A DNA stretch of 64,000 nt from Planotetraspora mira. GTDB lineage: Bacteria > Actinomycetota > Actinomycetes > Streptosporangiales > Streptosporangiaceae. Positions 11,580-49,507 of the stretch are shown here, piece by piece (position 1 is the stretch's first letter; each line of letters starts with the position of its first letter). The notes below the pieces were generated by a model. It made no database searches. It was not told where the DNA came from and saw only the letters and a program-made list of their open reading frames with translations. The stretch covers positions 186,001 through 250,000 of the forward strand of contig NZ_BOOO01000008.1 of assembly GCF_016863275.1 (NCBI RefSeq), written 5' to 3'. A program made the translations under genes and the position numbers.

Positions 11580-11768
11580 GGCTTCTTCCCCCGAATCTCA
11601 TGACCACATCGCAGGTTGGGCCGGTGAGACCACGTGGTCCCCCCAACCAAGGATGCCCTCCTGCCGGGCCGGTCGGCCGGGCACCCCGCGTGGGCCCCGC
11701 CTTGCGGCTTGCCGCCGGAGCCGAGGATCGTGTGCCGGAGGTCGGCGGGCCGGACGTCGGACGCCCAG

Positions 11769-11903
11769 GCTTCAGCGGCCGTGTTTCAGCGGGCCGTGTT
11801 TCAGGGGGCCGGGTTTCGGCGGGCCCGGGTTTCGGCGGGCCCGTGTTTCAGCGGGCCGTGTTTCAGCGGGCCGTGTTTCAGCGGGCCCGTGTTTCAGCGG
11901 GCG
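11769..11903. repeat. tandem 15-16 bp hairpin repeats
   Basis: About eight consecutive units of GGCC(C)GTGTTTCAGCG. Neighbouring units form stems GGCCCG / CGGGCC around TGTTTCAG. The last unit contains the sirtuin stop codon. One or two units vary (GGGTTTCGG). The array fills the 314-base gap between the sirtuin and the hydrolase start; the rest of the gap (11580-11768) shows nothing recognisable. Confidence 0.85.
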
Positions 11904-12832
11904 GTGCCGAGCTCCGCCAGCAGGGCGGTGAGGGCCGAGCCGAGCGGAGCGTCCAGAGCCACGAGGGCGTGGTCGTCGCCCCGGGTCGCGCCCTTGTTGA
12001 TGATCGCGACAGGTATGGCGCGCTCGCCGGCGTGACGGACGAACCGGAAGCCGGACATCACGGTCAGCGACGACCCCAGAACCAGCAACGTCCTGGCGTC
12101 CCCCGTCAGCGCGTAACACTCGTCGACGCGAGGGCGCGGCACGTTCTCGCCGAAGAACACGACGTCGGGCTTGAGCATGCCGCCGCAGCTGTGGCAGTCG
12201 ACGATCTCGAAGCCGTCGATCTGGTCATCGGCGATCACGGCGTCACCGTCGGGATTGATCGCACTCACCTGGGCGCGCCAGCCAGGGTTGGCCTCGCGCA
12301 GTTGCTGGTCGAGCAGCCTGCGGGCGGTGCGCTGACCGCAGGAAAGACACATCACCCGGTCGATGGCGCCGTGGAGTTCGATCACCTGCTGGGCGCCTGC
12401 GGCCTGGTGCAGGCCGTCGACGTTCTGGGTGATGATCCCGGCGACCAGGCCGCGAGCCTGCAACTCCGCGACCGCGTGATGACCGGCGTTGGGCGCGGCG
12501 CGGGCGATGTGCCCCCAGCCCAGATGACTCCGGGCCCAGTAGCGGCGGCGGGCCTCGGCGCTGCCGATGAACGTCTGGTACGTCATCGGATCGGCCTGCC
12601 GCCTTCTACCGGTCTCTCCTCGGTAGTCGGGGATGCCGGACTCCGTCGACAGGCCGGCTCCGCTGAGGATCACCACCCCGCCGTCCGCGACGAGGTCGAC
12701 CAGCGTCCTGAACGCGGGGCCATCGGGCACGCCTGTTCGATCGGTGGGGTCCGTGCCGTGCGCAGGGTCCGCGCCGTGCCTGTGGTCCATTCGATCTGTT
12801 CGATCCGTACGGTCCGCGAACGCATCGGACAT
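11894..12832 (-). CDS. sirtuin (SIR2 family NAD-dependent deacylase)
   Basis: 312 residues from ATG at 12832. It shows the NAD-binding GAGLSTESGIPDYRG (about 56-70), TQNVDGLHQAAG, catalytic His in ELHGAIDRV, a Cys4 zinc site (CLSC and CHSC), and GSSLTVMSGFRF. It is a class II/III-type bacterial sirtuin that removes acyl groups from lysines with NAD. The first 45 residues are a low-complexity Asp/Arg/Thr/His repeat (DRTDRTDRMDH...) unlike the compact start of most sirtuins; translation may start further in. The stop codon lies in the last unit of a tandem hairpin repeat. Confidence 0.94.
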   Translation of the reverse strand: MSDAFADRTDRTDRMDHRHGADPAHGTDPTDRTGVPDGPAFRTLVDLVADGGVVILSGAGLSTESGIPDYRGETGRRRQADPMTYQTFIGSAEARRRYWARSHLGWGHIARAAPNAGHHAVAELQARGLVAGIITQNVDGLHQAAGAQQVIELHGAIDRVMCLSCGQRTARRLLDQQLREANPGWRAQVSAINPDGDAVIADDQIDGFEIVDCHSCGGMLKPDVVFFGENVPRPRVDECYALTGDARTLLVLGSSLTVMSGFRFVRHAGERAIPVAIINKGATRGDDHALVALDAPLGSALTALLAELGTAR

Positions 12833-12972
12833 AACGCCACGAGGCTCATCTATCGCCCGAGTCACTCCTCCATGGTGCCCGACATCCGCACCTGCCCGGG
12901 ACAACGCCCCGGCCGCCGAGAGGACGGCCCGGCCACCGGGAATCGATGATCGCCGGCGATCGTTACCTCGCC

Positions 12973-13362
12973 ATGAGCGTGATTCCCGATGACCTGATTG
13001 ACCTGCTCGAGCGGCCGATTTTCGGCAATCTCGGCACGATCCGGCCCGACGACACCGTGCAGGTGAACCCGATGTGGTTCGAGTTCGACGGTGATCAGAT
13101 CCGGTTCACCCACACCACTTACCGCGCCAAGTACCGCAATCTCCAGCACAACCCGTCGATGAGTCTGCTGATCATCGACCCGGACGACCCGCTGCGCTTC
13201 CTCGAGGTCCGAGGCAGCCTGGTCGACGTCGTACCGGACCCCGAGGGGGCGTTCTACGTGCGCCTCGGCCGGCGCTACGGGGATCCGGACACGCCGCCGC
13301 CGGCGGACAGCAAGGACCGCGTCATCCTCGTGATGGCCGTGAAGAAGAGCGCGAGGAAGTAG
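12973..13362 (+). CDS. PPOX-class F420-dependent oxidoreductase
   Basis: 129 residues from ATG at 12973 (MSVIPDDLIDLLERP); an ATG at 12946 in frame is an alternative, neither with a good ribosome site. The split beta-barrel flavin/F420-binding pattern is clear: IFGNLGTIRPDDTVQVNP, WFEFDGDQIRFTHT, RAKYRNLQHNPSMSLLIID, LEVRGSLVDV. These proteins reduce substrates with F420H2 or bind flavin. Substrate unknown. A strong hairpin follows. Confidence 0.9.
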   Translation: MSVIPDDLIDLLERPIFGNLGTIRPDDTVQVNPMWFEFDGDQIRFTHTTYRAKYRNLQHNPSMSLLIIDPDDPLRFLEVRGSLVDVVPDPEGAFYVRLGRRYGDPDTPPPADSKDRVILVMAVKKSARK

Positions 13363-13446: not shown

Positions 13447-13824
13447 CCGCGTGATCATGCACAGGTTCGGAGATGTACGCCCTGACCTGCACACTCACCG
13501 TCCGTGATCATGCACAGGTTCGGAGATGTGCCGCTTGAGCTGCACAAACGCCTGACGTGATCATGCAAATGCGCACCCTGCGGCCTGGGCATCCCGCTGC
13601 ATGATCACAACATGCGTACGGCCAGGCCGGCGATACCCCAGACGAAAGTGCGCATGATCACGACCTGAATCGCCCCAGCTCAAGGGGGATCTACACGAAG
13701 GTGTGCATGATCACGCCACGTGTCCGGCCAGCTCAGAGATGGTTTTCACGAAGGTGTGCATGATCACGCGCAAAGGGGGGGCAGGTCAGGGCGTACATCG
13801 CCGAACCTGTGCATGATCACGCGG
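13447..13824. repeat. 53-bp periodic palindrome array with polarity inversion
   Basis: Eight copies of GTGATCATGC or its complement start at 13451, 13504, 13557 (forward), then 13599, 13652, 13705, 13758 and 13811 (reverse). Spacing is exactly 53 bases except 42 at the switch. Each unit continues with a degenerate CACA..TTCG and a TGAGCTG-like block about 32 bases in. The outer units form a 44-bp inverted repeat (13447-13490 and 13781-13824) with one mismatch. Unit sequences diverge between the fixed blocks. The last copy overlaps the stop codon of the methyltransferase gene. Confidence 0.95.
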
Positions 13825-14635
13825 AGGGGCGGCGGGTGGCTAGGCCTAGGCCGCCTACGGCGCCGGCTTCGCCTTGCTTGACGATCGGGACATCCCGCGG
13901 ACGCCAATCCTGCAGGGCGACGACTCCGGGGTCGACCAGGTCGAGTCCCTCGAAGAAGGCCGCCACCTGTGCCGGCGTCCGGGACGCGGCACCGGGTGCC
14001 GACGTGCGGCTGAACACCTGCCGCCCCTCACGCTCCTGATCCTCGCTCAGCGCTCCGATGGATCCGTGCGAGACGACGAGATAGCCGCCAGGCCCGAGGG
14101 CGGACCTGAACGTCGCCGCGATGTCCGCCGCCTCGTCGTCGTCGGGGACGAAGTGCAGAACGCCGAGCAGCAGGATCGCCACGGGCTGGGAGAAATCGAG
14201 GTGGCCGCGGACGTCCGGGTGATCGAGGAGCGCCTGCGCCTTCCTCATGTCGGCGTCCACGGCGATCACGTGGACGTTCTCCGAGAGCAGGGCCCTCGCG
14301 TGGGTGAGCACGATGGGGTCGTTGTCGACATAGACGACACGCGAATCCGGCACCAGTTCCTGGGCGACCTGGTGGACGTTCCGCTGCGTCGGCAGCCCGG
14401 CCCCGACGTCCAGGAACTGCCGGATCCCCTGCCCGCTGAGGTAGGTCACGGCGCGAACCAGGAACTCGCGGTTCTCCCTGGCGACGTCCCGGACATTGGG
14501 CAGGATCTCGATGATCTTCTCGGCCGCCTCGCGGTCGGCCGCGAAATTGTCCTTGCCACCCAGGTAGTAGTCGTACATCCGCGCGACGCTCGGTGTGAAC
14601 GGATCAACCCCGGATGGTGCCTTGAAGTCGTTCAC
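13817..14635 (-). CDS. SAM-dependent methyltransferase (Methyltransf_19/DUF574 type)
   Basis: 272 residues from GTG at 14635, which has GAGGAGT five bases upstream; a longer frame to 14797 is not supported. Family hallmarks: PSVARMYDYYLGGKDNFAADR, NREFLVRAVTYLSGQGIRQFLDVGAGLPT (SAM motif I), VVYVDNDPIVLTHARALL and a LGVLHFVPD motif. These actinobacteria-specific proteins occur in many paralogs, often with regulators; substrates are largely unknown. The C-terminus ends inside the 53-bp repeat array. Confidence 0.93.
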   Translation of the reverse strand: MNDFKAPSGVDPFTPSVARMYDYYLGGKDNFAADREAAEKIIEILPNVRDVARENREFLVRAVTYLSGQGIRQFLDVGAGLPTQRNVHQVAQELVPDSRVVYVDNDPIVLTHARALLSENVHVIAVDADMRKAQALLDHPDVRGHLDFSQPVAILLLGVLHFVPDDDEAADIAATFRSALGPGGYLVVSHGSIGALSEDQEREGRQVFSRTSAPGAASRTPAQVAAFFEGLDLVDPGVVALQDWRPRDVPIVKQGEAGAVGGLGLATRRPSA

Positions 14636-48644: not shown

Positions 48645-48707
48645 ATACGCGATCTTAGGGCGGAGAAGTTGCGGTAACGGGGGTTCCGTGCGTTAGCCTC
48701 GACCACG

Positions 48708-48800
48708 ACACCGCGGGAGCCCGGCGCACCGGGCTGAGAGTGTGGCTGGCGCGGCCACAGACCGCTCGAACCTGACCGGGTCATGCCGGCGTAGGGAGTT
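48708..48800 (+). ncRNA. TPP riboswitch (THI element)
   Basis: Matches the conserved core: GCGGGAGCCC, then GGGCTGAGAG (pyrimidine-sensing helix), and CTCGAACCTGACCGGGTCATGCCGGCGTAGGGAG (in parts; pyrophosphate-sensing helix). It ends about 12 bases before the tenA start, so it probably masks the ribosome site (in GTAGGGAG) when TPP binds. Confidence 0.95.
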
Positions 48801-48811
48801 GGTCCGAAACT

Positions 48812-49507
48812 ATGTCCGAGTCGACCTTTCCGCAAGCGACCCAACGGACCTTCAGCGAAGAGCTGTGGGATGCGATCGTCCCGATCTACCAGGCGATCCT
48901 CGACCATCCGTTCATCACGGGCCTGGTCGACGGCACCTTGCCGCACGACTCCTTCCGGCACTTCGTGGTGCAGGACTCGCACTACCTGCGCGACTACGCC
49001 CGGGCCCTGGCGCTGTGCGCGGCCAAAGCGCCGACCGAGGACGACGTACGAGCCTTCGCCGGCGACGCCGCGGGAGCGATCGCCGCCGAGCAGGACATGC
49101 ACGGAGCGTTCATGGCCGATCTCGGCGGCTCCGCCGAGCAGGCCGCGACGCTGCCCGTGGGGCCGACCACTCGGGCGTACACCAGCTACCTGCTCGCGAC
49201 CGTGCACGGCGGATCGTTCCTTGACGGCCTCGCTGCGGTGTTGCCCTGCTACTGGATCTACGCCCGTGTCGGCGAGGCACTGCTCGAACGCTCGTCACCC
49301 GACCCGCTCTACCGCCGCTGGATCGCCACCTACGGGGACGAGGCGTTCCAGAGCGTGGTCCGCCGGGTCGTCGCCCTGGCCGACCGCGTCGGGGACGAGG
49401 CGACCGTCGCTCAACGCTCCCGCGCCCGCGAGCACTTCATCACCACGTCTCGCTACGAATGGATGTTCTGGGACGCCGCCTGGCGACGCGAGTCCTGGCC
49501 GATCTGA
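48812..49507 (+). CDS. tenA: TenA-family aminopyrimidine aminohydrolase (thiaminase II)
   Basis: 231 residues. Active-site pattern: D55 in VVQDSHYLRDYARAL, C146 in VLPCYWIYARVGE, E216 in RYEWMFWDAAWRRE. Hydrolyses aminopyrimidine salvage intermediates from degraded thiamine to HMP. A TPP riboswitch stands directly before it, confirming a thiamine role. No other thi genes are nearby. Confidence 0.95.
   Translation: MSESTFPQATQRTFSEELWDAIVPIYQAILDHPFITGLVDGTLPHDSFRHFVVQDSHYLRDYARALALCAAKAPTEDDVRAFAGDAAGAIAAEQDMHGAFMADLGGSAEQAATLPVGPTTRAYTSYLLATVHGGSFLDGLAAVLPCYWIYARVGEALLERSSPDPLYRRWIATYGDEAFQSVVRRVVALADRVGDEATVAQRSRAREHFITTSRYEWMFWDAAWRRESWPI

Follow-up and report, generated by a model that had tools for sequence, protein, structure and literature searches.

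Intergenic arrays of a constrained, polar box in Planotetraspora that may be read by a dedicated DNA-binding protein

What maintains a row of eight identical short words, evenly spaced and switching orientation partway along, between two genes of the soil bacterium Planotetraspora, a genus of Streptosporangiaceae? We analysed this array within a 64,000-nt stretch of the genome (hereafter the window). All eight copies of the core, GTGATCATGC, are exact and lie within positions 13451-13820, starting where the original prediction had placed them, with the first three on the + strand and the last five on the - strand. The core spacings are 53, 53, 42, 53, 53, 53 and 53 bp, which confirms the six 53-bp steps and the single 42-bp step at the orientation flip. 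The left arm consists of cores at 13451..13460, 13504..13513 and, innermost, 13557..13566, joined by two bodies, one at 13461-13503 with ACAGGTTCG and TGACCTG and the other at 13514-13556 with ACAGGTTCG and TGAGCTG. A centre at 13567..13598 separates it from the right arm, in which cores at 13599..13608 (innermost), 13652..13661, 13705..13714, 13758..13767 and 13811..13820 (outermost) are joined by four bodies (13609-13651, 13662-13704, 13715-13757 and 13768-13810); at the second of these cores the TTCG block is on the - strand. The blocks CACA..TTCG and TGAGCTG, said to be kept by each unit, are real, but a consensus of 254 units (below) describes them better. The TTCG block is missing at the innermost core of each arm, so that an arm reads core-[body-core]n. 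With one mismatch allowed, the window gives 13 matches to GTGATCATGC; 100 shuffles gave 4.56 +/- 2.26 and always fewer than 13.

The array sits between two convergent genes, one of the pyridoxamine 5'-phosphate oxidase family on the + strand (12946..13362; PF01243, E 1.8e-13) and one of the S-adenosyl methyltransferase family on the - strand (13817..14635; PF04672, E 4.2e-90), both called with a codon-bias caller made for this analysis that overextends some starts. The outermost right core contains the TGA stop codon of the second gene, giving a 4-base overlap. A perfect 13-bp inverted repeat resembling a terminator hairpin (13373-13385/13406-13418) lies between the stop of the left gene and the array. 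No Rfam family reached its gathering score at the array, a relaxed threshold produced one weak match under the cut-off, and plasmid and phage sequences searched with the array gave no match. Elsewhere the window carries a TPP riboswitch (48703-48814; RF00059, 63.1 bits) and about nine copies of a 15-bp tandem repeat, TTCAGCGGGCCGTGT (11763-11906), adjoining a gene that we take from its sequence to be Sir2-like.

The core recurs throughout the genome to which the window belongs (G000), with 972 exact copies (475 + 497) against about 7.2 expected at 70% GC and no copies of a control word that reads backwards. Core pairs at 53 +/- 1 bp number 641 in this genome and 729, 132, 571 and 655 in four congeners, the low value being that of G002, and the same search found none in 55 further genomes. 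A strict pattern of five units in a row matched four stretches of Planotetraspora silvatica and one of P. kaengkrachanensis among named genomes. The genome-wide search that had been proposed as a check therefore finds that hundreds of further copies preserve the 53-bp spacing, some of them in genera other than Planotetraspora.

We read 2.56 Mb over five Planotetraspora species and found 81 intergenic arrays comprising 447 cores, an array being a group of at least two cores, with lone cores excluded. Each arm has the structure core-[43-bp body-core]n. With orientation written as arrowheads, 31 arrays are '><', 23 are '>', 25 are '<', two are '><><' and none is '<>'; 48 of the 81 are thus one-armed. 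Same-strand cores are 53 bp apart in 302 of 329 cases, a count biased towards 53 because a core carrying one or two mismatches was accepted only when another lay 52-54 bp away. The distance across the orientation switch is not constant: the listed centres span 20 to 152 bp, with 25 bp the commonest. One such centre (G000:C1:279158-279312) contains a hairpin-like CGTACGGCATGCGC...CGCATGCCGTAC, and related centres occur at the same locus in G003, G004 and G001. Counts pooled over the five species are not independent, because the loci are orthologous.

Arrays tend to abut gene ends, with 65 of 90 flanking 3' ends but 17 of 48 flanking 5' ends overlapping an array or lying within 30 bp of it (species pooled). 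Convergent placement exceeds divergent placement by 29 to 9 (p 0.0013) when the orthologous arrays of the five genomes are pooled, and by 8 to 4 in G000 alone (p 0.38). This preference for 3' ends would suit an element acting at the RNA level, in which facing arms, once transcribed, fold into long hairpins and so terminate or process mRNAs where convergent genes meet, and the window array does fold at -221 kcal/mol compared with -142 +/- 6 for 100 shuffles. The suggestion of a non-coding element is to that extent admissible for the '><' arrays, but the one-armed majority could form no such hairpin. In addition, one-armed arrays between co-directional genes follow the direction of transcription in only 15 of 26 cases, and mirror units are 0.37-0.48 alike in their free columns compared with 0.38 for random pairs. 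We therefore regard an RNA-level function as very unlikely.

Alignment of 254 units bore out the conserved blocks and refined their consensus to CGTGATCATGC-ACAGGTTCG-N13-YGACCTGC-N4-AC-N-C-N4-C, in which the core is fixed by the way units were selected. The best-conserved positions outside the core are 0, 11, 13 and 16-19 (within ACAGGTTCG, of which 12, 14 and 15 are looser), 33-39 (YGACCTG), 45-46 and 53. Blocks aside, units of one array are nearly as dissimilar as random units. Free-column likeness of at least 0.72 occurs in 19 of 473 same-locus pairs compared with 6 of 6,277 cross-locus pairs; alike units thus cluster within loci, and units therefore duplicate or convert locally. At five aligned loci the number of units differs mostly by whole 53-bp steps. 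Pairing within the unit between CAGGT and ACCTG was considered and rejected, since the strongest column links are mainly between neighbouring columns and not between those two blocks.

The arrays are stable in position. Those of G000 recur in the same orientation at 10/10 comparable loci in G003, 9/9 in G004, 5/5 in G001 and 7/10 in G002, where two of the remaining loci are emptied and one is changed. Conversely, five of seven G001 arrays recur in G000 and four of seven in each of the other three species, leaving at most three loci that bear an array only in G001. Orthologues of the window array itself read '>>>>><<<<<' in G003 and '>>>><<<<<' in G004, and the one in G002 ('><><<') is fragmented. 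In the close species G004 the best-matching unit is on the same strand in 39 of 39 cases, with a median difference of 0.12 in the best matches. Positional conservation extends to another genus: in G060 a one-body array separates two genes of a xanthine-dehydrogenase-type operon that also flank an array in G000, and the proteins encoded on either side are 81% and 85% identical. In G003 (C55 16387-17558) and G002 (C4; L085 15377-16553), two extra genes separate the array from its left flanking gene; the window lacks them, and they are uncalled in G004. The idea that arrays are hotspots of gene-order change is not supported, as 10 of 13 gene pairs with an array are conserved compared with 190 of 263 others (7 of 11 compared with 121 of 161 for G001).

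We polarised sequence changes along lineages to assess constraint, using 9-10 loci that were picked in the anchor genome and in which some aligned G003 and G002 units may not be true counterparts. With three genomes and the G000 arrays, the G003 lineage changed at 1/202 core positions, 11/168 block positions and 60/316 free columns, and the G002 lineage at 26/227, 41/198 and 60/316, respectively. Polarisation with five genomes gave 1/336 core and 105/380 free changes for G003, and 18/223 and 36/217 for G002. The G002 core is less changed than its free columns at p 0.018 with the G000 arrays and at p 0.065 with G003 as anchor (18/236 compared with 29/222). Thus, the core is near-frozen in the G003 lineage while free body columns change fast. 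The suggestion that the period and the blocks seem selected is supported in that both are constrained. In G002, which also has fewer arrays and the fewest 53-bp pairs (132 compared with 571-729 in the other four genomes), constraint has largely been lost; because its core is still somewhat less changed than its free columns, the loss is partial or recent. G002 is also richer in near-misses: a looser pattern raises its count from 132 to 181 (1.37-fold) and that of G000 from 641 to 694, the range for the other four genomes being 0.99 to 1.09. The boxes are constrained as a family. Purifying selection or local conversion may underlie the constancy of the core.

These comparisons also bear on the possibility that the arrays are MITE-like elements or remnants of a transposon family with long inverted ends, for which facing arms, sites empty in some species and arms enclosing single genes could be cited. 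Against it, most comparable arrays occupy the same loci between species, and in one case (the G060 operon) between genera; the core is constrained; and Y1 transposases (PF01797), the only type searched, are absent in G000, G002, G003 and G004 and give four matches in G001. One array (G001:C12:106375) is present only in G001, the other four species having the two genes overlapping by 4 bases. Of 272 candidate copies, the 40 that were scored include none close to it, the next best being 73% identical over most of its length or 80% over shorter stretches. Recent mobility, as in the proposed mobilisation as inverted halves, thus finds no support, and constraint, orthologous positions and the lack of close copies all speak against a decayed segment of a known transposon. 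We consider a transposon origin hardly tenable.

Between the cores, the sequence evolves fast. From G000 to G004, free columns changed at 141/973 positions (0.145), the values for fourfold sites and for the remaining intergenic DNA being 0.061 and 0.050; from G000 to G003 the values are 447/1057 (0.42), 0.189 and 0.138. Core changes over the same intervals number 5/500 and 10/540. Array bodies thus evolve at roughly double the rate of these neutral references, and the core far more slowly. The free columns are therefore not merely neutral.

Such rapid change counts against a reading of the boxes as DNA-uptake-like tags, in which a receptor prefers DNA carrying core and tag, so that recombination maintains the words wherever intergenic sites tolerate them and each lineage has its own dialect: biased recombination does not obviously predict free columns that outpace fourfold sites. 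DNA uptake sequences (DUS) are not known to occur in 53-bp phased rows. Competence through ComEC proved uninformative, as all 28 genomes carry the gene whether or not they have arrays, and it does not discriminate. Resemblances to DUS (PMC3630211) do lie in the fixed core, the dialects that mark lineages, the inverted pairs between genes and the decay seen in one species. On balance, uptake tags are a decidedly unlikely explanation.

Each box opens with the fixed core, GTGATCATGCA, and the tag that comes after it is specific to the lineage, reading CAGGTTCG in the window array. The corresponding block in G000, G003 and G004 is ACAGGTTCG (ACAGG), and in G001 it is AGAAGTTCG, with G12 in 55 and A14 in 57 of 59 units. 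As the shared arrays are orthologous, the G001 tag represents a coordinated shift across nearly all units examined. The loss of constraint in G002 and the tag shift in G001 both point towards a trans-acting reader.

We then followed the box beyond the genus. A sequence model at E 0.01 matched 63 of 200 family genomes, most of them once or twice and weakly, with ten genomes outside Planotetraspora reaching at least six matches. A pattern admitting the A/T variant and one mismatch matched 29 of 341 family genomes and no controls. Thirteen genomes had at least eight matches: the five Planotetraspora, G085 (493), G109 (286), G209 (173), G225 (64), G060 (63), G143 (62), G216 (45) and G222 (8). In these Streptosporangiaceae the core reads GTGATCATGC or GTGATCTTGC, each lineage has its own tag and YGACCTG is largely retained. 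Exact core pairs at 34-64 bp occur in 8 of 394 genomes of the class, namely G373 (165 pairs), G432 (94), G371 (22), G579 (13), G491 (6), G143 (3), G000 and G637, the last with a single pair that is probably due to chance. Tags outside Streptosporangiaceae are ATCCCGCC, [CG][AG]TCCTGGG, CGCCAGCGC or CGCCAGACC, and CGTTCGCCC; G371 has GCCGCTCGG plus variants that differ between its arrays. The 20 distinct loci outside the family comprise 16 that are two-armed and inward-facing, two that are one-armed (L151 and L156) and two misfits (L150, '<<><', and L159, with an extra outward one-mismatch site). Viral contigs contained no exact 53-bp core pairs, and six viral stretches with looser spacing were judged to be chance or unrelated repeats from their tags and the absence of facing arms.

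Spacing at these loci outside Streptosporangiaceae varies from 22 to about 70 bp. The exact 53-bp spacing (five helical turns) is thus a Streptosporangiaceae feature that other actinobacterial families do not share, and helical phasing, as in the suggested phase-locked operator, is therefore not a general need. The same variability weighs against the arrays being chromosome-organising or boundary sites, at which a nucleoid protein polymerises on phased units and facing arms make loops or domain borders. Besides their strong constraint, arrays offer this idea a mean spacing of 27 kb (CV 0.71; 58 intervals, orthologous ones included) and an alternation of neighbouring arms, half-arrays included, in 14 of 16 cases in G000 (p 0.002), which falls to 9 of 14 in G001 (p 0.21). 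Their distribution is, however, patchy: the A/T one-mismatch pattern has no match in ten other species of genus g86 (10 of its 15), nor is there a match in G388, a congener of the positive G432, and core density differs about twofold between contigs. A role in chromosome organisation accordingly seems unlikely to us.

A clue to the reader comes from the genes that facing arms enclose. Outside Streptosporangiaceae, four of six such genes, from four genomes and two families, encode homologues of an AbiEi-REase family. L153 (G371; left-arm cores with one mismatch) and L169 (G579) enclose homologues that are 40% identical over 301 aa. Three loci were selected only by a gap of about 1 kb between facing arms, and two of them enclose the same family (L201 in G432 and L203 in G491), the third, L202, enclosing an epimerase; L164 (G373) encloses a MobA-like enzyme. 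L159, whose gene is non-homologous, is left out of this count, its left side being a lone one-mismatch core. AbiEi proteins are common in actinobacteria, and part of the linkage between gene and array could therefore reflect cargo.

Profile searches identify the family unevenly: in Pfam, L201 passes the AbiEi_4 and AbiEi_1 cut-offs, L153 passes AbiEi_1, L169 and L203 pass none, and the REase model MTES_1575 scores under its cut-off in L201, L203 and L169. NCBIfam gave no match on the L153 and L169 proteins, and the PADLOC AbiEi models match all four enclosed proteins. An AlphaFold2 model of the L201 protein (pLDDT 89.9) is matched by Foldseek to AbiEi (6y8q, E 4.5e-6), and its C-terminal part to the catalytic domain of the homing endonuclease I-Bth0305I (3r3p; TMt 0.72, probability 1.00, E 0.054). 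The enclosed family is predicted to combine an AbiEi DNA-binding part with a putative nuclease-like part.

A distant homologue, a DUF559 gene of Tsukamurella tyrosinosolvens (NZ_LR134454.1), has on either side an inward-facing pair of a different, unrelated word (L205 2821-2884 and 3772-3835; four copies of the word in 6.75 kb). This pair was found at 18 places in seven records, all of T. tyrosinosolvens and apparently of one assembly. A Nonomuraea homologue has no clear inward-facing flanking repeats, and among 108 candidate stretches in viral contigs no family member was confirmed.

Enclosed genes within Streptosporangiaceae are of other kinds. Split arrays in Planotetraspora enclose a single gene for a thiolase or an enzyme that, from its sequence, is presumably GNAT-like (L140 1502-3054, L142 13-1563 and G000:C13:228798-230219), and four further facing-arm stretches in G001 or G000 hold no gene or other genes. 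At G060 L148 1502-3013, facing arms '>>' (1502, 1555) and '<<' (2951, 3004) enclose the downstream gene of the xdh-type operon. These enclosed genes count against an AbiEi-type reader, as does the lack of a Planotetraspora homologue in the DNA read, which was 2.56 Mb over five genomes, including 0.96 of the 9.03 Mb (10.7%) of G000. The MobA-like enzyme and the epimerase outside the family, the MTES_1575 scores under the cut-off, the Nonomuraea homologue and the tag variation within G371 weigh in the same direction.

The explanation that we favour, with a rough probability of 0.45, is that the array consists of polar boxes recognised by a DNA-binding factor with sequence specificity, a protein of the AbiEi-REase kind being the candidate reader. 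Of the readings that had been suggested, protein binding is the most likely. AbiEi is reported to bind two inverted 23-bp sites separately, and the authors propose that one monomer occupies each site, with the winged helix on a conserved part of about 11 bp and the other domain on the rest (PMC3985639). Core plus tag measures about 20 bp, with the core outermost and the boxes inverted, so that size, layout and outward-in polarity appear to agree with the AbiEi sites as that source describes them; the boxes are therefore proposed for an AbiEi-REase-like reader.

Such a reader would join a winged helix of the AbiEi type to a nuclease-like part, and one monomer of it may bind each box with the core at the outer end; in Streptosporangiaceae each box sits in a 53-bp unit. 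That the boxes stay near-unchanged between species is probably owed to a dedicated protein that reads them and binds or cuts DNA. Further, the gene and its population of boxes might persist together, rather as RAYTs and REPINs do, and box-directed breakage and repair could account for fast evolution between cores and for changes in unit number mostly by whole 53-bp steps. The proposal builds on observed features: constraint, its large loss in G002, the G001 tag shift, inward polarity and gene linkage outside the family. We infer the identity of the reader in Planotetraspora, as well as binding, cutting and any benefit to the host.

A bolder version, which we find doubtful, is that fusion of AbiEi with a homing-type nuclease and core-plus-tag boxes form a new repeat-enzyme partnership unrelated to REP/RAYT. 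Cutting and short-tract repair would then keep about 1,000 boxes intact, speed mutation between them and shift the whole population when the taste of the protein changes, and different lineages, including Tsukamurella with its unrelated boxes, would carry their own versions. If an AbiEi-nuclease is the reader, the arrays provide a working hypothesis for a poorly understood actinobacterial group (AbiEi / DUF559 / MTES_1575), and a second type of enzyme able to keep a repeat population in a bacterial genome. G002, with constraint largely lost, and G001, with a changed tag, constitute natural experiments through which the reader could be found by comparing complete genomes.

Among the open-access literature matches listed, none describes a near-thousand-copy word that stands mostly in rows with fixed spacing, polarity and lineage dialects. 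The arrays are unlike CRISPR, as had been stated: a 10-bp core, bodies that share blocks and two orientations take the place of near-identical longer repeats, unrelated spacers and a single orientation. The MIRU of Mycobacterium tuberculosis are intergenic tandem units, often of 53 bp, that abut stop and start codons, and they are near-identical direct repeats. The arrays resemble them in unit length, tandem intergenic arrangement and the abutting of codons, but differ in that units have diverged except in their blocks and often form two facing arms. Neisseriaceae DUS (PMC3630211) likewise combine a constant core with lineage dialects, many intergenic copies and inverted pairs. Core and dialects are present here too, with an A/T variant in the core and a tag that varies within G371; the two differ in that the boxes here form phased rows of many copies separated by a 43-bp body, point inward from one side only and showed no link to competence. 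REP/REPIN-RAYT systems share hundreds of short intergenic elements, inverted pairs, vertical maintenance and a supposed dedicated enzyme (PMC8049555), and the inverted pairs of a short intergenic repeat that define a REPIN are found here in 31 '><' and two '><><' arrays of 81. Differences lie in the 53-bp phased rows, the core plus tag and the candidate enzyme, AbiEi-REase in place of a RAYT; G000 has no Y1/RAYT gene, so that a RAYT mobiliser is rejected there. The AbiEi operator boxes of type IV toxin-antitoxin systems have inverted 23-bp half-sites and a conserved part of about 11 bp (PMC3985639), and an AbiEi domain recurs in the array-enclosed proteins, although no abiEii partner was noticed at those loci. 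Here, however, the boxes number hundreds, stand in rows distant from the gene instead of forming one operator, and would be read by an AbiEi part fused to a nuclease-like one.
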